Shown piece by piece: positions 19,840 to 31,771 of a stretch of 64,000 nucleotides of DNA. Numbering within the stretch: the stretch's first letter is position 1; every line of letters starts with the position of its first letter. The notes under the pieces are model-generated. The model did not search any database. It saw only the letters and a program-made list of their open reading frames with translations, and was not told the DNA's origin. The stretch comes from Dermabacteraceae bacterium TAE3-ERU27 (GTDB taxonomy: Bacteria; Actinomycetota; Actinomycetes; Actinomycetales; Dermabacteraceae), in contig JAHUUL010000001.1 in assembly GCA_019218415.1 (NCBI GenBank), forward strand, positions 434,001 through 498,000, in the 5' to 3' direction. A program made the position numbers and the translations under genes.

Positions 19840-20047
19840 GTATCGCTTGCCGCGTAGGCGTGACAGGAATGCAAGTTTCGTTCTGTGAACGTGCCCACTT
19901 TATTTTTCTGGGGCTATCCTGATTGCTACCTGCATGTAGGCTGGGATCGAGAGGTTCTCTGAGTTATAGAACTAATTGCCTCCTGTGCTGCGGGTTTAAC
20001 GGCGTTGTGGCCGAGTGGGGCGCCAAACACGGTTAAGGAGAAGGACT

Positions 20048-20854
20048 TTGTCTGAAGACAAGCTGAACGAGGTTGAAGGTGGCGCTCTGACCCGTCGCGG
20101 CCTTGCCAAGGCCGCTGCCTGGGGTGCTCCGGCGGTTGTGATGATGGGGGCTGCTCCCTGTGTTGGGGCGTCTACCATTGATTTTCCCGAAAACCCCTTC
20201 GGTTCCAACTGGCTTTATGTTGACCAGCGTGATCCTGGCAGTAGCTCTCCGCTGGATCGGGGGGACTTCCACTACCTCTTCCCGGATAACGGTAAGGCTA
20301 TTACCGTTCCTAAGATGGAGTGGACTGTACGGGTCGTTCCGGTGCCGAACAATGACAATTTGGTACAGTCTGACCAGAGTCGTGAAGTCTGGATCGAGGA
20401 ATACCACACCAGTAACCTCGGAAATGCCGTAGCTTTCACTAAGACCACTCCGGTTAGCGGCTCTACCGGTGATTTTATCTCTCCGCTGAAGAAGAAGGCA
20501 GAGAAGAATGCGGACGGTAGTTACACGCTGAACTTCACCACTGCGGAGGTTACCGATACGCGTGGTAACCAGATCCGTAGCTTCGGTTTCAAGGTCTACA
20601 CCGGCGGCGCTTCGAAGCTGATTAGCCGTCGTGCGGACAAATTGGTGATCGAGGGACGCCCGGTACTTCCCAAGGATGACGAAGGCAATCCGATCTACCC
20701 TTGCAAGCCGGGAACCAATACCAGATTTGATCCGCTATGGGTGAAATACGACACTATCGAGAATGCTAGCCCAGATAAGCGGTGGACTGTTGGTCTGACC
20801 GAGGAAGAGAACCGCAGGCGTGGTTGGACCCAGGCTCAGGACGGTCGCATCTGA
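20048..20854 (+). CDS. Tat-exported protein of unknown function
   Basis: A 268-aa protein if started at TTG 20048, which has AAGGAGAAGG at ideal spacing; an upstream in-frame start at 20015 lacks this. The N-terminus MSEDKLNEVEGGALTRRGLAKAAAWGAPAVV contains the Tat motif TRRGLAK followed by a hydrophobic stretch and AAPCVGAS. A Cys at about residue 38 is not in a clear lipobox. The mature part is polar with several beta-rich segments and no recognised domain. Base composition is visibly lower in GC than its neighbours, a possible sign of transfer or of a fast-evolving surface protein. Single gene; hairpin at 20881 follows. Confidence 0.7.
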   Translation: MSEDKLNEVEGGALTRRGLAKAAAWGAPAVVMMGAAPCVGASTIDFPENPFGSNWLYVDQRDPGSSSPLDRGDFHYLFPDNGKAITVPKMEWTVRVVPVPNNDNLVQSDQSREVWIEEYHTSNLGNAVAFTKTTPVSGSTGDFISPLKKKAEKNADGSYTLNFTTAEVTDTRGNQIRSFGFKVYTGGASKLISRRADKLVIEGRPVLPKDDEGNPIYPCKPGTNTRFDPLWVKYDTIENASPDKRWTVGLTEEENRRRGWTQAQDGRI

Positions 20855-20880
20855 TCTTGGCCTAGCTCGATAGGAACCTT

Positions 20881-20914
20881 GCGAGGGCCACCTCAGTAAT
20901 GGGGTGGCCCTCGC
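20881..20914 (+). terminator. Hairpin after the exported-protein gene
   Basis: Perfect 12-nt arms GCGAGGGCCACC / GGTGGCCCTCGC with a 10-nt loop, 27 nt past the stop. The following ATTTACAT is only modestly U-rich. Confidence 0.7.
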
Positions 20915-20951
20915 ATTTACATAAGAAGATTTTAGGTTTAACGATAAACGA

Positions 20952-20997
20952 TAGGGGGTTAGCTACTCTTCTTTACCAGAAAGTAGCTAACCCCCTA
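20952..20997 (-). terminator. Hairpin at the end of the oxamate operon
   Basis: Perfect 16-nt arms TAGGGGGTTAGCTACT / AGTAGCTAACCCCCTA with a 14-nt loop, 22 nt past the arcC stop on the minus strand. No strict U-run follows, but position and stem strength suit a terminator or 3' stabilising hairpin. Confidence 0.7.
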
Positions 20998-21019
20998 GAG
21001 CATTATTTTGGATTTGCCC

Positions 21020-21955
21020 CTAGTTCAGCGTGATCCGCGTGCCGGTCTCGCCGCGCAGAGCCTGTGCCAGGCAGTCGATGCTGGTAATCAGCGCCTCACC
21101 ATTCGGGTTGTTCTCCACGAAGTTCAGCGCCGCCTCCATCTTCGGCAGCATCGAACCGGCGGGGAACTGGCCCTGCTCGATGTACTCCAGTGCCTCCGCG
21201 CGGGTCATGTGATCCACCCAGCGCTGGGTCGGCTTGCCGAAGTCCACGGCCACCTGCGGCACGCCCGTGACCAGGAACAGCGAATCGGCCTTCAGCTCGT
21301 GCGCCAGCAGCGCCGAAGCTGCATCCTTATCGATCACGGCCTCCACCGTCTCCTCGCGGCCATCCTTACGCACGGTCGGAATGCCACCGCCGCCGCAGGC
21401 CAGCACGATGTGCCCGGCGTCCATCAGGGTGCGCACGGAACGGAACTCGAGGATCTGCTGCGGCTTCGGGGACGGCACCACCCAGCGGTAGCCGCGGCCC
21501 GAATCCTCGATCACGGTGCGGCCCTCGGCGCGCATCCGCTCAGCTTCCTCTTCCGACAGGAAACGGCCGACGGGCTTGGTCGGATTCGCGAAAGCCGGAT
21601 CCTCGTGGTCCACCAGGGTGTGGCTGATAACCGAGGTCACCTTGAAGAACTTGTTGCGCTTGAGGCAGATGTTGCGCAGCGCGTAGCGCAGCAGCGAGCC
21701 GATCGAGCCTTCGCTCATCGCGCCGGTCGACGCCATCAGGATCTCCGAAATATCGGAATGCTTCTGGGCCAGATCCAGCATGCCCTCGTAGATCACGCCA
21801 ACCTGCGGGCCGTTGCCGTAGGTGAGAACAACATCCATGCCCTCTTCGGCGAAGTCGATCACCGGCTCCAGCATCTCTTCCAGGGCGGAAGTGTCGTGCG
21901 GGTTGACGGTGGGCAGGGCGTTGCCGCCGACTGCGATAACCAGCGTCTTAGACAT
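21020..21955 (-). CDS. arcC: Carbamate kinase
   Basis: Transfers phosphate from carbamoyl phosphate to ADP, yielding ATP plus carbamate (then NH3 and CO2). 311 aa, family length. Motifs: VIAVGGNALPTVN at the N-terminus, TYGNGPQVG at about residues 44-52, PSPKPQQI and the ACGGGGIP nucleotide-binding loop. Good ribosome-binding site AAAGGAG before ATG 21955. It is the last gene of the operon with FdrA/DUF1116/DUF2877. No arginine deiminase or ornithine carbamoyltransferase lies in the operon, so the carbamoyl phosphate source is inferred to be the FdrA-type transcarbamylase. Confidence 0.94.
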   Translation of the reverse strand: MSKTLVIAVGGNALPTVNPHDTSALEEMLEPVIDFAEEGMDVVLTYGNGPQVGVIYEGMLDLAQKHSDISEILMASTGAMSEGSIGSLLRYALRNICLKRNKFFKVTSVISHTLVDHEDPAFANPTKPVGRFLSEEEAERMRAEGRTVIEDSGRGYRWVVPSPKPQQILEFRSVRTLMDAGHIVLACGGGGIPTVRKDGREETVEAVIDKDAASALLAHELKADSLFLVTGVPQVAVDFGKPTQRWVDHMTRAEALEYIEQGQFPAGSMLPKMEAALNFVENNPNGEALITSIDCLAQALRGETGTRITLN

Positions 21956-22062
21956 TGAAACTCCTTTGGGTATTAAGCGGTAATAATGGCCCCGCCGCCC
22001 CGGCTGGATAGCAAGGCCGGGACGGCGGGGAAAGGGAGGCGAGGGGGGGAAACCCGGCTACC

Positions 22063-23313
22063 TCACATCCCCAGCTCTTTTGCGTACTTCTCGGCGAACG
22101 CCTCGAGTGCTTTCTCGAAGCAGGCCAGCGGCGGGAACACGACGCCCGCCCCGACCTGGCCGACCCCCGGTTCGCGGTGCGCGATACCGGAGTTGATGTA
22201 GGGCCGAATGCCCGTCTCGACCACGCTCACCATGTCCACACCCACCGGGATGCCCTGGAACCCGATGGTCGGGGCCTTGTAGGTCTGGGACTTGCCCTCG
22301 GTGATGGTGAACATGCGCCGCGTGATGTCGTAAGCCGCGTCGGAACCGTCCAGGCCCACAAACTGGGTCACGGCGGGGGCGCAGGCCATGGCGACGCCGC
22401 CGAAACCGACACATTCCACGATCGCGGAGTCGCCGATGTCCGGGTTCGCGTCCTTCTCCGTGTAACCGGGGAAGTACAGGCCCTGCGGCATCTCCACCGG
22501 AGCCTCGAACCAGGTGTCACCGAGCGCCGCGATCTTGATACCGAAGTTCGTGCCGTTACGCGACATGGCCGACACCAACGTGCAGTGCTCGATGCCCTTG
22601 ATCGGATCGATGCTCGCCTTCGCGGACGCCATCGCCAGGTTCAGGAAGAACTGGTCGTTGGTGTACAGGAACGACGCGATTCGTTCGATCACGTCGCCGT
22701 CGTGGCAGGTGCGCGCGATCGCGGGCATGATCTCCCGGAAGAACAGGGCCGACGCCGCGATGTTGCGCTGGTGCAGCTCGTCGCCCATCGCCAGGGCCTT
22801 CGCGATGATGACCCGCAGGTCGATCCCGCCCACCTGGGCGATGGCGCGCTTCACAACCGGCGCGAACTCGTCGGCCAACCAGCGCAGACGATCCAGCACC
22901 TCGGCGTCGTTAGCGCCGAAACGCATCACCTTGCCGATGCCCTCGTTAAAGGTCGAATAGGCGACGTTACCGAAAGCCTTGTTTTCCACCTTCACCAGGG
23001 GCATGGACGGCGAAACCATGCCTGTCATGGGGCCGACGATGTCCGCCGAATGGTTGTGCCGCAGCTCAACCCCGCCGGACTCCACCAGGGCGGCGGCGGC
23101 ATCAAGATCGCTTGCCCAACCCTCGTAGACGCACACGCCGAGGATCGCGCCACGCAGCGGGCCGCACATGTCGGCCCAGGCCAGCGGCGGTCCCGCATGG
23201 TAGATGACGCGGTCCCCCGCCGGGAGGACGTCGCGTGCGTACACGACGTCCACCAGCGTAGGTTCCGCAGCGTTGATACGGGCAAGCGCCCGCTCGTTCG
23301 CCTCGCGAATCAT
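22063..23313 (-). CDS. ylbE: DUF1116 (YlbE/AllG-like) protein, copy 1
   Basis: A 416-aa protein of the DUF1116 family: MIREANERALARINAAEPTLVDV at the N-terminus, HAGPPLAWADMCGPLRGA, the central ELRHNHSADIVGPMTGMVSPSMP and GDELHQRN. E. coli YlbE (AllG) is one of three subunits reported to form oxamate carbamoyltransferase together with FdrA and YlbF. It is clearly paralogous to the gene at 25108-26343 (same motif order, e.g. GDELHMRN there) but diverged. Starts 2 nt after the stop of the 59-aa FdrA-domain gene, so the two are translationally linked. Confidence 0.88.
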   Translation of the reverse strand: MIREANERALARINAAEPTLVDVVYARDVLPAGDRVIYHAGPPLAWADMCGPLRGAILGVCVYEGWASDLDAAAALVESGGVELRHNHSADIVGPMTGMVSPSMPLVKVENKAFGNVAYSTFNEGIGKVMRFGANDAEVLDRLRWLADEFAPVVKRAIAQVGGIDLRVIIAKALAMGDELHQRNIAASALFFREIMPAIARTCHDGDVIERIASFLYTNDQFFLNLAMASAKASIDPIKGIEHCTLVSAMSRNGTNFGIKIAALGDTWFEAPVEMPQGLYFPGYTEKDANPDIGDSAIVECVGFGGVAMACAPAVTQFVGLDGSDAAYDITRRMFTITEGKSQTYKAPTIGFQGIPVGVDMVSVVETGIRPYINSGIAHREPGVGQVGAGVVFPPLACFEKALEAFAEKYAKELGM

Positions 23314-23315
23314 TT

Positions 23316-23495
23316 TCAGCCCAGCTCTTTCAGCCGCTCGATGATCTCGATCAGACGCAGGTTGCCACCGGCCGGCGGACGCCAGTCGATGTGCACACCG
23401 GTTGCGCCCTGCATGTTCACGGCGTCGTTGAACACCTCGAGGCCGAGGTTAAGCACGGTCATGTTTTCCTGCTCAAATAGCGGAGTGGTTTCCAT
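23316..23495 (-). CDS. FdrA-domain small protein
   Basis: A 59-aa protein, METTPLFEQENMTVLNLGLE ... QGATGVHIDWRPPAGG ... IERLKELG, with a proper ribosome-binding site (AGAAAGG) before ATG 23495. The short pattern of a hydrophobic N-terminal strand followed by VDWRPPAGG-type text is that of the short proteins annotated as 'FdrA domain protein' in other FdrA clusters. FdrA here (516 aa) is shorter than E. coli FdrA (about 555 aa), so this may be a detached C-terminal module. It sits between fdrA and DUF1116 copy 1. Too short for most gene callers. Confidence 0.8.
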   Translation of the reverse strand: METTPLFEQENMTVLNLGLEVFNDAVNMQGATGVHIDWRPPAGGNLRLIEIIERLKELG

Positions 23496-23528
23496 GATGA
23501 ATTACCTTTCTGCTGGCGTGAGCAGGGC

Positions 23529-25079
23529 TCACTTGACGACTGCGACGGCGGCGCGTGCGCAGTGCTCGTTCGTTTCGAATACGCGGATACCGGCCTCTTC
23601 CAGGATCTGCTCCTGGGCGCGGTAGTCCTGGTAGTCCTGGTAGGAGCCGCAAATGTTGGCGAAGAACGCTACCTCGCGGCCCACCTTTGCCAGCTCGGCG
23701 CGGGCCTCGCGGACCTCGTCGGCCAGGATCTTGCCGGCCTCATCGTGCGCGCCGTAGCCCGTCTCGATGTCGAGCACGATAACGGCGGTCTCCGGATCAA
23801 GAGCCTCCTGCAGGAGACGCTCGCCGCGCAGCGACGGCTCGATCATCGGGTGCGGCTTGCCGACGGTGAAGGCGTCGTCGCCGAGGTCGAGCACGGTGTG
23901 GCCCTCGGAACGGGTGACGTCCTTCAGCGCGTAGTCGTAGTTCAGCGGTGCGTTCGAGAATGGCATGCCGATCTCGTCGGCAATAATCAGCTGCGTCTCG
24001 TAGGAGAGCGTGCCGCCGCAGTACAGGCCGCGAATGTAGCGCTGGCCCTCGCTGAGGGCGGCGCGCGCCGCGGAAACGATTTCCTCGGTGTCCGCGCGGC
24101 CGATGACCTGGCTGGCCTCGGCATCGCCCGCGGCCATATCCAGGCAGAGCTGCGCGGTGTCGGTCAGGGTGTGGCCGACCTTCGCTTCGGTGCCGCCGAG
24201 CAGGTTCGAATCGTCACCCAGCAGGCAGGCCACGACGGGCTTGCTGAGGGAATCGATCTTACGGGCCAGCTTCTCCACCACGGCCGGGGCCGGAGGCTTG
24301 GAGACGATGGCGATGATGTCGGTCTGCGGATCCGCTTCGAGCATGTCGATCGCGTGCAGCATCATCTTGCCGCCGACGGCCTCCTTCAGGTCACGGCCAC
24401 CGGTGCCGAGCGCCTGGCTGATACCACCGCCGAAGTTAGAAACCAGGGTCATGACTTCCTGCAGGCCGGTGCCGGACGCCGCCACGATGCCGACGTTGCC
24501 GCGCGAAACCTTGTTCGCGAAGCCCAGGCCGACACCGTTTACCACGGCGGTGCCACAGTCCGGGCCCATCATCAACAGGCCCTTTTCAATGGCGAGGTCC
24601 TTCAGCTGGTTCTCGTTCTCGATACTCATGTTGTCGGAGAACAGCAGCACGTTAACGCCGGCGTTGAGCAGACGCTTCACCTCGATATGGGCCATGTTGC
24701 CGGGCAGGGAAACGACCGCCATCTGCGGCTCGGGGTATTCCTCCAGGGCCTGCGCGGTGGTTTCGAAAACGGTCTGTGCGCCGGACTTAGCCGCCTTCTG
24801 CGACTGCTTGGCTTCCAGGATCTCCATCGCGTGTGCGATGGCGGCATCCACGGCGGCCTCGTCGTCGGCCTTCACAGCGAACACCAGGTCGTTCGGCGAA
24901 GCGTCTTCGCCCTCCTGCGCGAGCAGGCCCGAGTTGCGCATCAGGTCCTTGTTCATCTCGGAGGCCATCATGACGGCGATGTTGTGCGAACCGCCCACCT
25001 CCGGCGCGACCTTGCTGGTGAGCAGCATCAGCGTGGCCGAGTCGTAGTACGAGTTCTTCTTGATTACGTTCTTGAGCAC
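23529..25079 (-). CDS. fdrA: FdrA / AllF-like subunit, acyl-CoA synthetase (succinyl-CoA synthetase alpha-like)
   Basis: A 516-aa protein. N-terminal 110 residues are FdrA-specific (SYYDSATLMLLTSKV). Then comes a Rossmann/CoA-binding-like region, LPGNMAHIEVKRLLNAGVNVLLFSDN, GPDCGTAVVNGVGLGFANKV and GNVGIVAASGTGLQEVM, like the succinyl-CoA synthetase alpha fold. The ligase-like C-terminal half has IRGLYCGGTLSYE and VLDIETGYGAHDEAG. FdrA (AllF) is a subunit of E. coli oxamate carbamoyltransferase, which converts oxalurate and phosphate to oxamate and carbamoyl phosphate. Same-strand neighbours are the other subunits and carbamate kinase. Confidence 0.9.
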   Translation of the reverse strand: MLKNVIKKNSYYDSATLMLLTSKVAPEVGGSHNIAVMMASEMNKDLMRNSGLLAQEGEDASPNDLVFAVKADDEAAVDAAIAHAMEILEAKQSQKAAKSGAQTVFETTAQALEEYPEPQMAVVSLPGNMAHIEVKRLLNAGVNVLLFSDNMSIENENQLKDLAIEKGLLMMGPDCGTAVVNGVGLGFANKVSRGNVGIVAASGTGLQEVMTLVSNFGGGISQALGTGGRDLKEAVGGKMMLHAIDMLEADPQTDIIAIVSKPPAPAVVEKLARKIDSLSKPVVACLLGDDSNLLGGTEAKVGHTLTDTAQLCLDMAAGDAEASQVIGRADTEEIVSAARAALSEGQRYIRGLYCGGTLSYETQLIIADEIGMPFSNAPLNYDYALKDVTRSEGHTVLDLGDDAFTVGKPHPMIEPSLRGERLLQEALDPETAVIVLDIETGYGAHDEAGKILADEVREARAELAKVGREVAFFANICGSYQDYQDYRAQEQILEEAGIRVFETNEHCARAAVAVVK

Positions 25080-25107
25080 GGTTACTCCTTAAACAGGCTG
25101 GTGAAGG

Positions 25108-26343
25108 TCAGATGCCGAGTTCTTCGGCGAGGGCGATGAGGGCATCCTCGAACGGCTTGGCCGGAATGGTGGACATGCCCGCGCCGACCATGCCGACACC
25201 CGCCTTGTTGGAGGCGATGGCGGTGTTCAGGGTCGGGGTGATGCCGGTTTCTACCACGAGCGCGGCGTCGATAGCGGTCGGGGCCCCCTGGAAGTCCAGA
25301 ATCGGGATCTGGTACTTCGGGTTCTCGGCCAGGCACACCCGGTACATGCTCTGCGTGGTCTTCCAGGCCACGTCAACGCTGGACGCGCCGACGAAACGCA
25401 CGATGGCGGGGGCGGCCAGCATGGCACAGCCGCCCAGACCGCCGACCTCCATGATCGCGGAGTCGCCCAGGTCGGGGTTCGCGTCAGCCTCGGTGCGGCC
25501 GGGGAAGTACAGGCCGTCAACCATCGGGGCCGGAGCGGTGAACCAGCGTCCCGGCAGGCCCGAGATGCGCACGCCTACCTCGACGCCGTTACGGGCGATA
25601 GCGGTCACCACGGAGGAGCCGGGGACGCCGTCGGCGGCGTCGGCCGCGAGCTTCATGGCGGGCATAGCCAGGTTCAGGAAGAACTGGTCGTTGCCGACGG
25701 ACATGAAACGCATGATGTCGGCGGTGTGCTCGCCCGCGTGCTCCGCGATACCGGTGGTGAGGGTCTTGATGATGAGCGCGGTGCAGGCGAGGTTGCGCAT
25801 GTGCAGCTCGTCGCCCATCGCCAGGCCCTGGCCGATCATCGGGGCCAGATCCAGGCCGCCCATCTCGCGAATGACCTTCTGGAAGATCGGCTGCGCGACC
25901 TCCTCGATCCAGTCCAGGCGCTTCAGGGTCTTTTCCCCGTACTCACCGAAGCGCAGGCCCACGCCCTGACCCTCGGAGATGTTGCAGAACGCGCGCTGGC
26001 CCGTGTTGCGATCCTCCACTACCCAAACCGGCATGGAGTAGGTGGTCAGGCCGGTCATGGGGCCGACGGCCCCGTAGGTGTGGCAGGGGGAGAACTCGAT
26101 GCCGCCGTTCAGCGCCAGCTGCTCGGCCTCCTCCGGCGTCTCGGCGAGGCGTTCGTGCAGGGCCGCGCAGATCACGGCGCCCTTCATCGGCTCGCACATG
26201 TCGGCGAACGCGATCGGCGGGCCGGCGTGCAGGAACAGGTTCTTCTTCAGTTCGGGAATGGCCTCGTGGGCGGGGATGATATCCACCAGCACCGGGTCCG
26301 AGGCGAGCATCTTCTCGACTGCAATACGGTTTGCTTCTCTCAT
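25108..26343 (-). CDS. ylbE: DUF1116 (YlbE/AllG-like) protein, copy 2
   Basis: A 411-aa DUF1116 protein: MREANRIAVEKMLASDPVLVDI, LHAGPPIAFADMCEPMKGAV, EFSPCHTYGAVGPMTGLTTYSMP and MGDELHMRNLA are in the same order as in copy 1 at 22063-23313. The substitution HNHSADIVGPM versus CHTYGAVGPM at the equivalent place suggests different substrates or a heteromeric complex. Its gene lies directly upstream of fdrA. Which copy is the true AllG counterpart cannot be settled by eye. Confidence 0.87.
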   Translation of the reverse strand: MREANRIAVEKMLASDPVLVDIIPAHEAIPELKKNLFLHAGPPIAFADMCEPMKGAVICAALHERLAETPEEAEQLALNGGIEFSPCHTYGAVGPMTGLTTYSMPVWVVEDRNTGQRAFCNISEGQGVGLRFGEYGEKTLKRLDWIEEVAQPIFQKVIREMGGLDLAPMIGQGLAMGDELHMRNLACTALIIKTLTTGIAEHAGEHTADIMRFMSVGNDQFFLNLAMPAMKLAADAADGVPGSSVVTAIARNGVEVGVRISGLPGRWFTAPAPMVDGLYFPGRTEADANPDLGDSAIMEVGGLGGCAMLAAPAIVRFVGASSVDVAWKTTQSMYRVCLAENPKYQIPILDFQGAPTAIDAALVVETGITPTLNTAIASNKAGVGMVGAGMSTIPAKPFEDALIALAEELGI

Positions 26344-26350
26344 TGCTTAC

Positions 26351-27601
26351 TTAGCCTCCAATCAGCTTGGAAATGACGTTGTACAGTCCCCAGAACCCGA
26401 GGATGAACGAGAGCAGCACGGCCAGGCCGCCCACCACGTTCTGCCAGGGCTTGTTGACGTACTCCTTCATGACCTTCGAGTTGTTGGCCGCGATGATCAG
26501 CAGCGCGGCGATGAACGGCAGGATGAACCCGGAGGTGGCCTGCGCGAAGATGATGATCTGGATCGGCTTGGCGCCGGAGATCGCGAGGAACGCGCCGAAC
26601 GCGACCACGACCAGGCCGAGTCCCCCCAGGTAGGGGTTGGCGATGCCGCCCTCGGTGTGGAACACCTTGGAGAGGATCGCGCGCATCGAGAACGGCACGG
26701 CGATGGCCGACGACAGACCGGCGGCGAACAGGCCGAGGTCACCCACGATGCGAGCCCAGGAACCGAGCACCGGCTCGAGCGACTTGGTGAACACCAGCGG
26801 GCTGTTTACCTGGGTGCCGGTGCCGTGCAGCACCTTAGCGGCCACCACGATGATCGACATGGTGATCATGCCGCCGATGATGATGTTGAACAGGATGTCG
26901 AAACGGGCGTCCTTGACGGCGGTCTTGACGTCCTTGTCCTGGCCCCACTTCTCGCCGGAGGTGATGGAGTGCAGGATCAGGTTGATACCGATCAGGGTGG
27001 TGCCAACCAGGGCCAGGGCGCTAATTACGCTGCCTTCCGGCATCGACGGCACGACCATGCCGCCCAGGATGCCCGGGATCGACGGCAGCACCGCCACCAT
27101 GGTGACAACGAAGAGGATCGCCATTGCGCTCACGAAGAACTGCATGATGCGGCTCAGCGCGGTGTAGGAGGTCATGAACACGGTGGCGGCGGCGATTGCG
27201 GCGGTGATGACCGCGGCGGCCCAGATCGGCATCGAGGTGATGTCGGCCAGGCCCGCGCTAGCGCCGACGATGTTACCGGCCTCGAACGCGAAGCAGATCG
27301 CGAGGGTGCCGGCCACGATGATGGTCTGCACGAAGCGCTTCCAGACGACGCTGGAGGGGAACATGTCAATCGCGGCATCGATGACGTTCTTGCCGCCGGC
27401 GATACCGACGCGCGAGGACATCTCCATCAGTACCACCAGGGCGATTACCGCAAGCAGCAGCACCCACAGCAGGGCGTAGCTGAACTCGGTGCCGACCTTG
27501 GTGGCGGTAATAACGGTGCCGGGGCCAATGAACGCGCTGGTAATAATGGCCGCGGGGCCCATCTTTTGGAATCTGGCCTTGAGGCCGCTTTGCTGTTGCA
27601 T
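26351..27601 (-). CDS. Nramp-like (SLC11-family) permease
   Basis: A 416-aa protein with about 11 TM helices. N-terminal GPAAIITSAFIGPGTVITATKVGTEFSYALLW is the Nramp TM1 region, where classical metal transporters have a DPGN motif; here the equivalent is GPGT, so the metal-binding Asp and Asn are absent. TM6 region SITSGEKWG also lacks the MPH motif. It therefore belongs to the Nramp-related branch without metal ligands and probably moves a different substrate. Good AAAGGAG before ATG 27601. Its place in the oxamate operon suggests import of the catabolic substrate; that is inference. Confidence 0.8.
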   Translation of the reverse strand: MQQQSGLKARFQKMGPAAIITSAFIGPGTVITATKVGTEFSYALLWVLLLAVIALVVLMEMSSRVGIAGGKNVIDAAIDMFPSSVVWKRFVQTIIVAGTLAICFAFEAGNIVGASAGLADITSMPIWAAAVITAAIAAATVFMTSYTALSRIMQFFVSAMAILFVVTMVAVLPSIPGILGGMVVPSMPEGSVISALALVGTTLIGINLILHSITSGEKWGQDKDVKTAVKDARFDILFNIIIGGMITMSIIVVAAKVLHGTGTQVNSPLVFTKSLEPVLGSWARIVGDLGLFAAGLSSAIAVPFSMRAILSKVFHTEGGIANPYLGGLGLVVVAFGAFLAISGAKPIQIIIFAQATSGFILPFIAALLIIAANNSKVMKEYVNKPWQNVVGGLAVLLSFILGFWGLYNVISKLIGG

Positions 27602-27627
27602 GAGAACTCCTTTGTTGTTGAGTGCGG

Positions 27628-28473
27628 TTATTTCTGATTGAAACTTTTAGCTGCGAGCAGCACGCCGCGCGCCGTGTCGGCTCCCGACGAATGCCCGAGG
27701 GCCAGCAGCCCCGCGAGCGCGCCGGGCGCGGGAGCCCCCGCATAGCCGCGCAGCGTGCCGCTGAGGTGGGAAGAAAAATGCCCCGCGCAGGCCAGGCGCA
27801 GATAGTTCGCAGAGACATCGGTGGTCCTGGCCAGGAGCGGCGCGAGCGCGGTGACCAGGGACGCGAAAGCGGGCGCGGCGTAGCGGCGGGTGAAAGCCAG
27901 CGCGCCCAGCACGGAATCGTCGCCGGAGGGGGTCAGGCCGAAGCCCAGCCCGATCACCTCGCGCAGCAGCGCCGACGTCTGGTGGGTAGGCACGTCCTCT
28001 CCGCGCAGCAGGGGAGTCAGGGCTTCGCGCAGGCACTGGGCGATGCGTTCGCTAACCTCGGCGTAGCTATCCGGCAGGGAGGTTTCCTGCGCCGCTATCG
28101 CAGCGGCGATCTCGTCGCTGTAACCGGGGTGGGTGAAAGAGCCGCCCGTGGCCAACAGGGTGTCTACGCGCTGCGTGCTGGCAGAGAGGAGCAGCCCGAG
28201 CGGATCGCGCCGCAGCACGTCGGCATGGGAGGCGATGTGCACGCTGTCGCCGCTGTTGAGCAGCCCGGGCAGGTTCGTGGCGCGCCAGTGCGTGAGCGGC
28301 AGGGCGATGGAGAAGGACGCCGGGTAGTGTGCGCCGGTTGCGGGACCGACCCAGGCGAGCAGGCCGTCGGGCAGCTCCAGGTTGAACCCCGACGCGAACA
28401 CGGAATGTACGCGTGCCTGTTCGGGAAGCTCCGGCAGCGGGCCGTTCAGGTGGGAAACGGGCAGGTAGATCAC
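27628..28473 (-). CDS. ylbF: DUF2877 (YlbF/AllH-like) protein
   Basis: A 281-aa protein. The C-terminal signature REVIGLGFGLTPSGDDSVLGALAF and the following helices are diagnostic of DUF2877, the family of E. coli YlbF (AllH), third subunit of oxamate carbamoyltransferase. Starts at GTG 28473, overlapping the stop of the LctP-like gene by 4 nt. Soluble, with no membrane segment. It is the only DUF2877 in the operon, in contrast to the two DUF1116 copies. Confidence 0.88.
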   Translation of the reverse strand: MIYLPVSHLNGPLPELPEQARVHSVFASGFNLELPDGLLAWVGPATGAHYPASFSIALPLTHWRATNLPGLLNSGDSVHIASHADVLRRDPLGLLLSASTQRVDTLLATGGSFTHPGYSDEIAAAIAAQETSLPDSYAEVSERIAQCLREALTPLLRGEDVPTHQTSALLREVIGLGFGLTPSGDDSVLGALAFTRRYAAPAFASLVTALAPLLARTTDVSANYLRLACAGHFSSHLSGTLRGYAGAPAPGALAGLLALGHSSGADTARGVLLAAKSFNQK

Positions 28474-29996
28474 GCGCCCACCCCGATCCAGAGGCTAAGC
28501 GCCAGGCCAACCACGAGCGCCTGCGCCAGGCTGATGACCAGCAGTGGCCGCAGGATTTCGCCCTCGCGGCCCTGCACGCCCGCGGTGGTGGCACCGAGCA
28601 GGATCGTGGACGGGCCGATGACCGCGCCCGCCGCGCCGCCCGCCGTCTGCGCGGCGAGGACCAGCGGCGCGGGCGCTGCGAGCTGCGCCGCCACCTCGCT
28701 CTGGAACGCCGCCAGCAGAATGTTGGAGGACATGTTCGAAGAGGTCACGAATGCGCCGAACGTGCCCAGGGTGGCGGTGAAAGGCAGGTAGGCGATACCG
28801 GCGGTGGCCGCCACGCCCTGCGCCAAAATCTCGATCTGCCCCGTATTGAACAGCAGACGCGCCAGCACCAGCAGGGCGGCGATACCAAGGCTGGTCGGCA
28901 ACAGTTTGGCCAGCGCGGCGCGGCATGCGCGCACCGTCCCGGCGCGGTCCACGCCACCCTCGCGGCGCAGCAGAAGCAGCGCGAACACCGCCGTCAGGGT
29001 CAGCACGGTACCCGCGTGGTAGAACAGCGGTACCCCGAGCAGCCGCAACCCGGAGAGAGCCTCGTGCAGGCCGGGCAGCGTGAACAGCAGCAGGGAGGAA
29101 GCCGCCAGGAACAGGAACGGCGCGGCCGACGTGAGCACGTTTCCGGCGGCGGGAGCGGCGGGGGCGGTAGGAACATCGGCCTGGGAGGGAGCTGCGAGCA
29201 GCCGGGAGGGGCACGACCATTCGGAGGTGTAGATACCCAGCCGGAAAGCCCCCAGCACCAGCACGAACGCGGCCGCAGTCGGCACGAACGCGGCAATGGT
29301 CGGGTTTACCTGGCCAACCGCTATCTGGCCGCCCGCCATCACGGCGGAAACCGCCAGCACGAACGGCAGCGCGTGGCGCACGGCCGGGCCGCGCCCGTAA
29401 AGGAAGCACATGATAAGCGCGCCCGACAGGTTGATCAGCCACAGGAAAATGCCCGCGTAGAGCGAGGTGGCCGCAACGTCCTGCACGCCGCTCAGATCCA
29501 CCAGGGCGTCCCAGGCCAGGCCCAGGGTGCCGTAGGTATTAGCCCAGGCGTGCCCCAGCAGAGTGAGCATGACGGCGGCGACCGGGCGCACGCCGAGCGC
29601 GATCAGGAACGGCGCGCAAACCGCCACCGGGACGCCGAATCCGGTGATCGACTGCAGAAAACTGGAAAAAACCCAGCCGAACAGGAGGACCAGGATCATG
29701 CGGTCGCCGCTGAGCGAGGTGGCGGCGTCCTTCAACACGGTAAAGGACTCTCCCTCACGCATGAACTCGTACAGGAAGATGGCGGGCCAGACCGCGTAAA
29801 GGATCGACAGGGTGGCGGAAAGCCCACCGCCGACGCTGTCGGCAAGCACGGGCAGGGTGAGCGTGCCGAGCAGCGCGGCGGAGGCGAGCGCGGTGGCTAA
29901 ACCGAGCGCGCCCGCGCGGGGTATGCGCACGCGGAAGAAAGCAATAGCGCTAAACAGCACCGCGACGGGCGCGATGCTAGCGAGCCATTGCCACAT
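28470..29996 (-). CDS. LctP-type (L-lactate permease family) transporter
   Basis: A 508-aa membrane protein with about 12-13 helices. GWVFSSFLQSITGFGVPVAVCAPFLIALGV and LLGHAWANTYGTLGLAWDAL are characteristic of the LctP/lactate permease family, as is FGAFVTSSNMSSNILLAAFQ near the C-terminus. First gene of the oxamate operon; DUF2877 overlaps its stop. LctP carries lactate and glycolate; oxamate is a close structural analogue of pyruvate and lactate, so a role in oxamate or oxalurate transport is a reasonable inference, not shown. Confidence 0.85.
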   Translation of the reverse strand: MWQWLASIAPVAVLFSAIAFFRVRIPRAGALGLATALASAALLGTLTLPVLADSVGGGLSATLSILYAVWPAIFLYEFMREGESFTVLKDAATSLSGDRMILVLLFGWVFSSFLQSITGFGVPVAVCAPFLIALGVRPVAAVMLTLLGHAWANTYGTLGLAWDALVDLSGVQDVAATSLYAGIFLWLINLSGALIMCFLYGRGPAVRHALPFVLAVSAVMAGGQIAVGQVNPTIAAFVPTAAAFVLVLGAFRLGIYTSEWSCPSRLLAAPSQADVPTAPAAPAAGNVLTSAAPFLFLAASSLLLFTLPGLHEALSGLRLLGVPLFYHAGTVLTLTAVFALLLLRREGGVDRAGTVRACRAALAKLLPTSLGIAALLVLARLLFNTGQIEILAQGVAATAGIAYLPFTATLGTFGAFVTSSNMSSNILLAAFQSEVAAQLAAPAPLVLAAQTAGGAAGAVIGPSTILLGATTAGVQGREGEILRPLLVISLAQALVVGLALSLWIGVGA

Positions 29997-30111
29997 TTTC
30001 TTCCCCTGACCATTACCGATTAGTAACAGTGGCGGGGGTGCGGGAACGCCGCTCCTGCCGCCTCTGTGCCTATAGCCTAAGGCCGGATACTTAACGAAAA
30101 GGCCGTGAAAT

Positions 30112-30149
30112 AGATAGACTTTTCTCGCTATCTTTATCCACTTTAGATA
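30112..30149. promoter_or_regulatory. Candidate operator in the divergent LctP/PucR promoter region
   Basis: AGATAG (30112-30117), CTATCT (30128-30133) and AGATA (30145-30149) form overlapping inverted half-sites spaced about 11-16 nt apart, in a 164-nt region between the operon start (29996) and the PucR gene (30161). PucR-family binding sites vary between species, so the assignment rests on position and symmetry only. Confidence 0.4.
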
Positions 30150-30160
30150 AGGGGTTTGTT

Positions 30161-31771
30161 GTGTTCGCAGCGATGACGGTGCGCGAGATGCTGGACCTGC
30201 CCGCGCTCTCCGCAGCCAGGGTGATATCGGGGCAGGACAACCTCGAGGCCAAAGTGCAACAGCTAAACGTGCTCGAAGCCCCCGACCTCGCCCCCTGGCT
30301 GGCCCCCGGCACCGTCTTGCTGACCAGCTACTTCGCGCTCGCCAACTGTTACGACGAAGAGCTGGAACAGTTCATTTCGCAGATGGTGGAGGCCAAGGTG
30401 TCGGCCATCGTGATCAAACTTGACCGGCTTGTGAGCGAGGTACCCCCCGAGTTCTTGCAGCCCAGCAGGCGCTACGGCATGCCGGTTATCACCGTGGACA
30501 AAGACGTCCGCTACGAAACGATCATCATGGACACGCTGCTGCCGATGGTGAATCACAAGGCGGGGCTGCTCGATCGGCACTACCGCATGAACCTGGTGCT
30601 TGATCGCTGGCGGATAGGCAACCACTCCCTGGAGGAGACGCTGAGCTATTTCGCCGAACTGATCGGATACCAGCTCACCCTGGAGAACATTCCCAATCGC
30701 GGCCTGCTCACTACGCTGGAGGAGCCGCTGCAACAGCGCGTCATAGAGGTCAAGCGGCACGTCAGCGAAAACTTCGCCGGGTTCTCGTACGACGTGCAGC
30801 AGGTGGTGGAACGCGGCGGCGGTACGGAGGTCAGCACCAGGGTGGTGGCGCCGATTGAGCTGGGGACCTCCCCGCGCTGTGAACTGATCGTGCACGACGC
30901 CCCGCAGCAGAGCGATGAATTCCTGATCGTGCTGGAACACCTGGCCCGGCACCTGCACATCGAGCTGCTCAACCAGCGCAACATCGACAACCTGATGTAC
31001 TTCAACCGGCACAACCTGGTAGACGAACTGCTCACCAACACGGAACTGACCCCGCGTAACCTGGCGGCGGTGACCCGCGCCCTCGGCCTCGGCGTGTCCC
31101 CCCAATACCAGGTGGTGCAGGTGACCCTGCTGCCGCCCCCGGACGATTCCGTGGCCGACCGCGCCGGTGTGGGCATGGGGGACACCTACCATCGGGACAC
31201 GCTGCGTATCAGGCGGCACCTGAGCGAACACTTCCCGCACTCGGAATGTCACGTCACAACGCACCGCGTAGCCATGATCGTGAACCTGCCCCGCGACGGG
31301 CAGCCGGTGACGTCGGCCGAGGTGGCCGACTGCCTGCCGGGAGACATCGTGCCCTACGTGGCGGGAATCAGCCGGGTCGGCACCGTCAAGGAACTACCCA
31401 AGCTGCGCGAACAGACCCAGCAGGTGAAAGACATCCAGAAAGCGTTGCGCCGCTACAGCGACCCGATGAGCTACGACGAGCTGGGCATCTTCAAGCTGTT
31501 CCACAGCCAGGAACTGGTGGAAAACATCGAAGAGTTCATCCCCCAAAAGTTCGTGCTGCTGCACCGCGAACACCCCGTGCTGTTCGAAACGCTGGTGACC
31601 TACCTGGAACAGGGCAGAAACGCCCACCGCTGCGCGCAAGAGCTGGTGGTGCACCCCAAGACCGTGCAGTACCGGCTGGGCCGCATCCAGGATCTGGGGC
31701 TGGCCGATCTGGAAAACGTGGACGAAACCCTGCAACTCCTGTTCGCGGCCCGCGTGCTGCGCGGCCGCTAA
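30161..31771 (+). CDS. PucR-family transcriptional regulator
   Basis: A 536-aa regulator. N-terminal PucR domain: MTVREMLDLPALSAARVISG, VLEAPDLAPWLAPGTVLLTSY. The middle resembles the CdaR GGDEF-like domain. The C-terminus has the PucR-type HTH_30: LVTYLEQGRNAHRCAQELVVHPKTVQYRLGRIQ. The family controls purine, proline or other nitrogen catabolic genes. It is divergent from the oxamate operon, so it is its likely regulator. Start GTG 30161 with AAGGGG upstream; the internal ATG 30173 begins exactly at MTVREM and is an alternative. Confidence 0.9.
   Translation: MFAAMTVREMLDLPALSAARVISGQDNLEAKVQQLNVLEAPDLAPWLAPGTVLLTSYFALANCYDEELEQFISQMVEAKVSAIVIKLDRLVSEVPPEFLQPSRRYGMPVITVDKDVRYETIIMDTLLPMVNHKAGLLDRHYRMNLVLDRWRIGNHSLEETLSYFAELIGYQLTLENIPNRGLLTTLEEPLQQRVIEVKRHVSENFAGFSYDVQQVVERGGGTEVSTRVVAPIELGTSPRCELIVHDAPQQSDEFLIVLEHLARHLHIELLNQRNIDNLMYFNRHNLVDELLTNTELTPRNLAAVTRALGLGVSPQYQVVQVTLLPPPDDSVADRAGVGMGDTYHRDTLRIRRHLSEHFPHSECHVTTHRVAMIVNLPRDGQPVTSAEVADCLPGDIVPYVAGISRVGTVKELPKLREQTQQVKDIQKALRRYSDPMSYDELGIFKLFHSQELVENIEEFIPQKFVLLHREHPVLFETLVTYLEQGRNAHRCAQELVVHPKTVQYRLGRIQDLGLADLENVDETLQLLFAARVLRGR

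Follow-up and report, generated by a model that had tools for sequence, protein, structure and literature searches.

The stretch of DNA analysed here, 64,000 nucleotides of the genome of Dermabacteraceae bacterium TAE3-ERU27 (hereafter the window, to which all coordinates refer; the genome itself is designated G000), contains an operon for a carbamoyltransferase of the AllFGH type in which the AllG (DUF1116) subunit is encoded twice. In order of transcription, the minus strand from 29996 down to 21020 carries the genes for an LctP-like permease (28470..29996), the AllH subunit formerly known as DUF2877 (27628..28473), an Nramp-like permease (26351..27601), a first AllG, here named AllG1 (25108..26343), AllF, also named FdrA (23529..25079), a free-standing peptide of 59 amino acids that resembles the tail of FdrA (peptide p; 23316..23495), a second AllG, named AllG2 (22063..23313), and a carbamate kinase of the catabolic type (21020..21955). 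The LctP and AllH genes overlap by 4 bases and the remaining neighbours are separated by 2-33 bases, with the exception of a 107-base interval ahead of the carbamate kinase gene. A gene for a PucR-type regulator (30161..31771, plus strand; PF07905 95 bits, HTH_30 57 bits) is divergent from this eight-gene set. The layout of eight closely spaced genes on one strand with a divergent pucR had been described in an earlier sequence-only reading of the locus, and all of it is present, pucR starting one base past the end which that reading had given.

The profile scores bear out the assignment, made in the same reading, of these genes to an oxamate-carbamoyltransferase-type set with a carbamate kinase and two permeases, and the enzyme class is regarded as solid. 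With PF06545, whose cut-off is 27, AllG1 scores 271.7 bits and AllG2 293.3 bits, and these matches are therefore not due to chance. AllF passes NF004760 (458.9 bits, cut-off 433) and is the sole strong FdrA match in its own genome, AllH matches PF11392 (69.3 bits, cut-off 25) in its C-terminal half only and has no sequence relative in the PDB at E 0.1, and the kinase passes NF009007 (307.2 bits, cut-off 266), its TIGR00746 (arcC) score of 306.3 bits being under the cut-off of 358.25. According to the Escherichia coli report (PMC11326118), AllFGH of that species has been shown experimentally to be oxamic transcarbamylase, which converts oxalurate into oxamate and carbamoyl phosphate, the latter being used by the operon-linked carbamate kinase AllK to make ATP. 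The window set shares with this system AllF, AllG, AllH and a linked kinase; unlike it, the window has two AllGs, a free peptide p, two permeases and pucR, and targeted searches of the genome (see below) found no allantoin genes. The operon is real and conserved, and represents a two-AllG variant of an enzyme class that is already known.

AllG1 and AllG2 are 42% identical to each other, and 46% and 48% identical, respectively, to E. coli YlbE (AllG). Their sequences indicate that the split between them is an old divergence, and a recent duplication of allG was ruled out by this level of identity together with the separate old clades to which they belong. In a 67-row tree, cut down from 109 rows by excluding 33 loci from enterobacteria as well as L005 and identical copies (L numbers denote fetched loci, G numbers genomes), AllG1 clusters with L006, L011, L151 and L152 with a support of 100/99. 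In a 60-row tree, from which more distant rows were removed and to which L192, L197, L198, L209, L225-L227, L232 and L234 were added, the AllG1 clade comprises eight rows (100/99), including three extra rows from L225 and L226, and is subdivided into L011/L151/L152 (100/99) and window/L006/L225/L226 (100/100), with L225_9391 being less firmly placed (90/85). AllG2 falls in a sister group which contains YlbE and the AllGs of allantoin clusters, and in which it pairs weakly with L025 (81/93).

The same division is seen in individual residues. Eleven alignment columns, selected without AllG2, hold a residue that all of 11 allantoin-linked AllGs share and none of the eight AllG1s has; AllG2 matches ten of these. 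At position 182, being the x in the near-invariant motif GDELHxRN, the 133 rows (identical copies removed, near-identical species such as Proteus kept) carry Q (72), N (47), S (8), M (5) or V (1). When neighbours were counted as far as the fetched stretches extend, and YlbE was entered by hand as allantoin-linked on the basis of its annotated neighbourhood, all 27 allantoin-linked rows have Q, and of the 35 rows linked to xanthine dehydrogenase or its cyclase neighbour 34 have N and one has S. All eight AllG1 rows have M; AllG1 (GDELHMRN) is thus referred to as M-type and AllG2 (GDELHQRN) as Q-type. This residue follows phylogeny and therefore supports membership of a subfamily rather than representing a proven substrate contact. 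The N-type AllGs (L026, L034, L182-L191, L216-L221 and others) have genes for xanthine dehydrogenase, a purine permease and a cyclase-like protein as neighbours, which suggests a third pathway for AllFGH. Through its bracketing in the tree and its ten allantoin-type residues, an oxalurate-type AllG2 is a good guess, so that the oxalurate proposed in the sequence-only reading is retained as the candidate substrate of AllG2 and not extended to AllG1.

A dead second AllG is unsupported. AllG1 keeps the near-invariant polar residues and deviates at few positions, e.g. 139, 376, 379, 386 and 392; over 70 columns with a conservation of 93% or more among 128 other AllG rows, its changes fall at non-polar or small residues, exceptions in this check being the N-terminus missing in the truncated L152 and an R at M176 in two rows. 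Structure prediction, performed on single chains, gave AllG2 a fold with a mean pLDDT of 94.8 which matches 3clq, an Enterococcus faecalis DUF1116 protein of unknown function (Z 64.8, root-mean-square deviation 1.0, 410 aligned residues), the next match having a Z of 4.4; the fold is close to 3clq alone and therefore provides no mechanistic lead.

What the sequence-only reading had called an FdrA-domain peptide is indeed present, and is more exactly described as a conserved module that occurs either free or fused to AllF or AllG. The 59-residue peptide is 45% identical to residues 509-555 of E. coli FdrA and 29% identical to the N-terminus of YahG, and aligns with positions 427-474 of FdrA in the solved chain 3dmy. 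An iterated profile returned 130 matches in the fetched loci, five of which are repeat reads of the same contigs, leaving 125 distinct copies, of which 30 are free, 51 are located N-terminally on AllG and 44 C-terminally on AllF; it was not found in seven to eight AllG-bearing loci, some of which end at a contig edge. Three of the AllF-fused copies belong to a single frame of ~1000 residues comprising AllF, peptide and AllG (L165:9315-12452, L192:9593-12592 and L197:7893-10904), an arrangement which argues for a physical complex. The peptide is thus a conserved core module and not debris, and the transcarbamylase has a fourth module which in E. coli is hidden within FdrA and which in the window is free, with one copy for two AllGs. 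A further E. coli operon, yah (YahE-YahF-YahG-YahI-YahJ), likewise encodes FdrA-, DUF1116- and DUF2877-type proteins and a carbamate kinase, and the window AllF (43% identity to YahF, 35% to FdrA) and kinase (41% to YahI, 33% to YbcF/AllK) are nearer to its products than to FdrA and YbcF. Unlike the window, the yah operon has one N-type AllG carrying p fused at its N-terminus as well as the amidohydrolase YahJ, and within the stretch examined it lacks both Nramp-like and LctP-like genes.

The gene order of the window is also found in L005/L210, from a second species of the genus (Dermabacteraceae bacterium TAE3-ERU5, G804), and in L006, from an Actinomycetaceae metagenome-assembled genome, whose AllG1 is 90% identical to that of the window. 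Among 25 genomes of the same family, the own genome included, the doubled AllG set is present in two (both of this genus), a single AllG in one and none in 22. Within the class, 88 of 394 genomes have an AllG and four have two matches, these being in tandem solely in the window genome; in the others the second match is a 24.8-bit fragment (G007), or the pair is located on different contigs (G068) or ~420 kb apart (G383). In the trees, most AllGs from actinobacteria are N-type and linked to xanthine dehydrogenase, which, together with the single tandem case among the 394 class genomes, speaks against actinobacterial inheritance of the tandem AllGs. Horizontal transfer of the operon is only suggested by its patchy distribution and by the fact that the genome with the nearest match in gene order belongs to the Bacillota. 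The operon genes have a GC content of 0.594-0.695 and a GC3 of 0.783-0.909, similar to the 0.658 and 0.794 of 29 background frames, and therefore give no clear compositional sign of transfer.

Elsewhere, the two-AllG clusters L007/L151, L008/L152, L225 and L226 (Oscillospiraceae) and L011 contain, as does the window, AllF, p, AllH, a Q-type AllG, AllG1, kinase and pucR, together with LctP-like or Nramp-like permeases; unlike the window, three of them include a cyanuric-acid-hydrolase-family gene and extra amidohydrolases, and L225 has three AllGs and two FdrAs. L225 repeats the window order LctP-AllH-Nramp-AllG1-FdrA-peptide and carries, further upstream, a second FdrA-peptide-AllG-kinase set and the third AllG. 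In L011, L151 and L152, AllG1 is in the same cluster as a PF09663 (cyanuric-acid-hydrolase-type) protein, that of L152 passing the cyanuric acid amidohydrolase model (370.3 against 360) and that of L011 being narrowly under it (357.6); across 21 genomes, PF09663 matches were obtained in three alone (G395, G396 and G399), with none in G394. These clusters also contain AtzC/YahJ-like amidohydrolases, with 5'-deoxyadenosine-deaminase-like ones in L151 and L152, and a formamidase-family gene is present in L007 and L011. In L152:1-7626 and in L151, AllG1, a carbamate kinase and an LctP-like permease are found with the cyanuric-acid-hydrolase-family gene and two further amidohydrolases, and these two clusters may possibly represent an energy-yielding pathway of the cyanurate type. 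A membrane protein without Pfam match adjoins a YahJ-like amidohydrolase in both L009:12251-13615 and L226:7730-9208, the two copies being 64% identical.

The LctP-like permease (Pfam Lactate_perm, PF02652, 189.6 bits over a cut-off of 27; TIGR00795 lctP 189.6 bits, under its cut-off of 341.15) probably transports small carboxylates resembling oxamate or oxalurate. LctP-like genes are present in L225 and in a further 17 fetched loci, which correspond to 14 distinct genomes or contigs. They include four clusters with two or more allantoin genes (L033, L048, L197 and L198), and four of the 26 distinct allantoin-linked loci (28 listed, two being repeat reads of the same contig) have an LctP-like gene, which fits a permease for oxalurate or oxamate. 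In a 15-row tree, the 13 cluster-linked permeases are separate from E. coli LldP and GlcA, a weak result, as there are two outgroup rows and the 13 were retrieved with the window protein. In the Nramp-like permease (Pfam Nramp 229.5 bits), a probable importer of the AllG1 substrate, the canonical metal-site motifs are absent: GPGT replaces DPGN in transmembrane segment (TM) 1 and IGI replaces MPH in TM6. It misses PRK00701 (148.6 against 430) and TIGR01197 (66.5 against 272.5). The Nramp-like proteins of L006, L225 and L226 also have GPGT and, where the sequence reaches, an IGI- or VGI/IGV-type motif in place of MPH, and L010 has the change for TM1 only. In a model Nramp, D56, N59 and M230 of the DPGN and MPH motifs bind the metal and changes of D56 abolish transport (PMC6398981). 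The Nramp-like gene is located directly upstream of the close AllG1 relatives in all four of their tree members (window, L006, L225 and L226).

The sequence-only reading had noted that allantoinase and ureidoglycolate genes are missing from the window, and no allantoin genes were found within its 64 kb. Extending the search to the own assembly (2.0 Mb, 98.05% complete) yielded, in targeted searches, no match for AllD and none that is convincing for AllB or AllC, AllE, uricase and xanthine dehydrogenase not having been searched for. AllD (PF02615) gave 0 matches, and no allantoinase is among the three amidohydrolase matches, which score best as a NagA-type N-acetylglucosamine-6-phosphate deacetylase (217.5, just under 225.65), a dihydroorotase (725.9 over 538) and an AtzC/YahJ-like protein (PRK05985 375.6, under 408). 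E. coli AllC matches none of the three M20 loci at E 1e-3, one of these being DapE (497.8 over 304.2) and another near acetylornithine deacetylase (296.5 against 297.7). In view of these negative results, import of an already open carbamoyl compound, as put forward in the earlier reading, is plausible, and an ATP gain would follow from the kinase. An AtzC/YahJ-like amidohydrolase encoded ~320 kb from the operon (L087, C1:787140-788120), whose best solved relative is the N-isopropylammelide isopropylaminohydrolase 6nbo (247.7 bits), could feed or precede the operon.

The interpretation favoured here, to which a probability of roughly 0.45 is given, is that a single core composed of AllF, peptide p, AllH and carbamate kinase, the genes of which are observed and the complex of which we infer, serves two substrate-specific AllGs. 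AllG2 would confer specificity for oxalurate, which with phosphate would yield oxamate and carbamoyl phosphate, while AllG1 would confer specificity for a second acyl-urea; biuret, carboxybiuret and ureidomalonate are candidates because they are acyl-ureas like oxalurate and because relatives of AllG1 have ring-opening neighbours. The kinase would use carbamoyl phosphate to produce ATP, CO2 and NH3, import of the AllG1 substrate would be the task of the Nramp-like permease, the LctP-like permease would take oxalurate in or oxamate out, and PucR would control the operon. Each of the six AllG1 genomes searched for FdrA has a single strong match, which supports a shared core. Several observations weigh against this interpretation. 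G1033, the genome of L225 and not among these six, has two FdrAs, so that a shared core is not universal, and the AllG1 substrate is guessed from neighbours which the own genome lacks, PF09663 having 0 matches in G000. Window AllG2 and the Bacillota AllG2s do not form a supported common clade in the 60-row tree, 22 of the 26 allantoin-linked loci, and also E. coli, are without an LctP-like gene, and the Nramp-like permease passes the NF037982 Nramp metal transporter model (81.6 bits against a cut-off of 50). In addition, the parts of the enzyme literature covered contain no biochemistry of any two-AllG system; AllG paralogues are likewise absent from the titles and abstract openings of the DUF1116 and oxamic-transcarbamylase literature, which is no proof of their being unpublished.

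That AllG1 is always accompanied by a Q-type AllG, as is the case in all eight AllG1 genomes known here (G000, G804, G394, G395, G396, G399, G1033 and G989), would also fit a single heteromeric enzyme, in which a mixed AllG1/AllG2 dimer would act with AllF, p and AllH on one compound. Such a heterodimer would be easily formed, given that the E. coli AllG is a predicted homodimer (PMC11326118), and in three loci (L006, L151 and that of the window) AllG1 has no separate peptide copy. This possibility is nevertheless considered rather unlikely: in L011, AllG1 is on the opposite strand, with its own peptide and an adjacent amidohydrolase of the ring-opening kind, the close AllG1 of L225 is accompanied by a separate FdrA and peptide, and both paralogues retain the conserved polar residues. 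Between the two explanations that the sequence-only reading had offered for the doubled DUF1116, two substrates therefore fits better than a heteromer: AllG1 constitutes a separate subfamily of old origin whose conserved residues are intact, and elsewhere it is found with a permease, ring-opening enzymes, a peptide or an FdrA of its own. It is also conceivable, if again improbable, that neither AllG uses oxalurate and that the two act, for example, on one carbamoyl group after another of a compound of the di-ureido or biuret/triuret type. In the available portion of PMC12625717, allFGHK of comammox and other nitrifier genomes adjoins biuret/triuret hydrolase genes; as in the window, allFGH and a carbamate kinase are thus found outside the allantoin pathway, and, unlike in the window, the hydrolases are alongside and a doubled AllG is not mentioned in that portion. 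The cyanuric-acid-hydrolase-family gene in the cluster of three AllG1 genomes and the lack of an oxalurate-forming enzyme in the own genome (targeted AllB/AllC/AllD searches, AllE not searched for) point in the same direction, whereas the tree position and allantoin-type residues of AllG2, and an LctP-like permease of the kind present in four allantoin clusters, favour oxalurate.

Two further explanations have very little probability. PucR regulators often control purine use, and AllFGH is the final step of allantoin breakdown in E. coli, which would be in keeping with an ordinary allantoin operon whose upstream genes are elsewhere in the genome; the results of the AllD, amidohydrolase and AllC searches given above, with their stated completeness and without AllE, make this a very remote prospect. 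The patchy distribution within the family, where the doubled set is confined to two genomes and a single AllG to one more, could reflect a recently acquired or decaying duplicate without a distinct function, and this is the least credible of the explanations: all frames are intact, the order is kept in the second species of the genus and in the Actinomycetaceae genome, AllG1 is highly similar to that of L006, and base composition is like that of the rest of the window.

With regard to the flanks of the operon, the intergenic control region (29997..30160) contains near the pucR start an inverted repeat, CTTATC...GATAA, which was found by eye, recurs in L005/L210 and L006 and is a candidate PucR operator. 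Promoter and terminator scans over 20850-30400 gave no enrichment relative to shuffles. On the plus strand, 20015-20854 is a frame of 279 amino acids with a twin-arginine-like N-terminus (LTRRGLAKAAAWGAP) and without a Pfam or NCBIfam match.

Up to 2024, oxamic transcarbamylase had remained an orphan enzyme. An operon with two AllGs and a single FdrA constitutes a natural experiment on which subunit sets specificity, and AllG1 and AllG2 on one core, or residue 182, make this question directly testable. A more far-reaching and doubtful proposal is that AllFGH is a modular platform in which a single AllF-p-AllH-kinase core takes up different AllG subunits, each specific for another acyl-urea, and in which the x of GDELHxRN marks the substrate, Q standing for oxalurate, N for a xanthine-dehydrogenase-linked compound and M for a third class; the M class would phosphorolyse biuret, carboxybiuret or ureidomalonate derived from the opening of cyanurate- or barbiturate-like rings, yielding ATP by substrate-level phosphorylation, and the host would import the opened product through a former metal transporter. 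Should the third subfamily act on products of cyanurate-type ring opening, it would provide an energy-yielding route from compounds that are otherwise mostly regarded as nitrogen sources.

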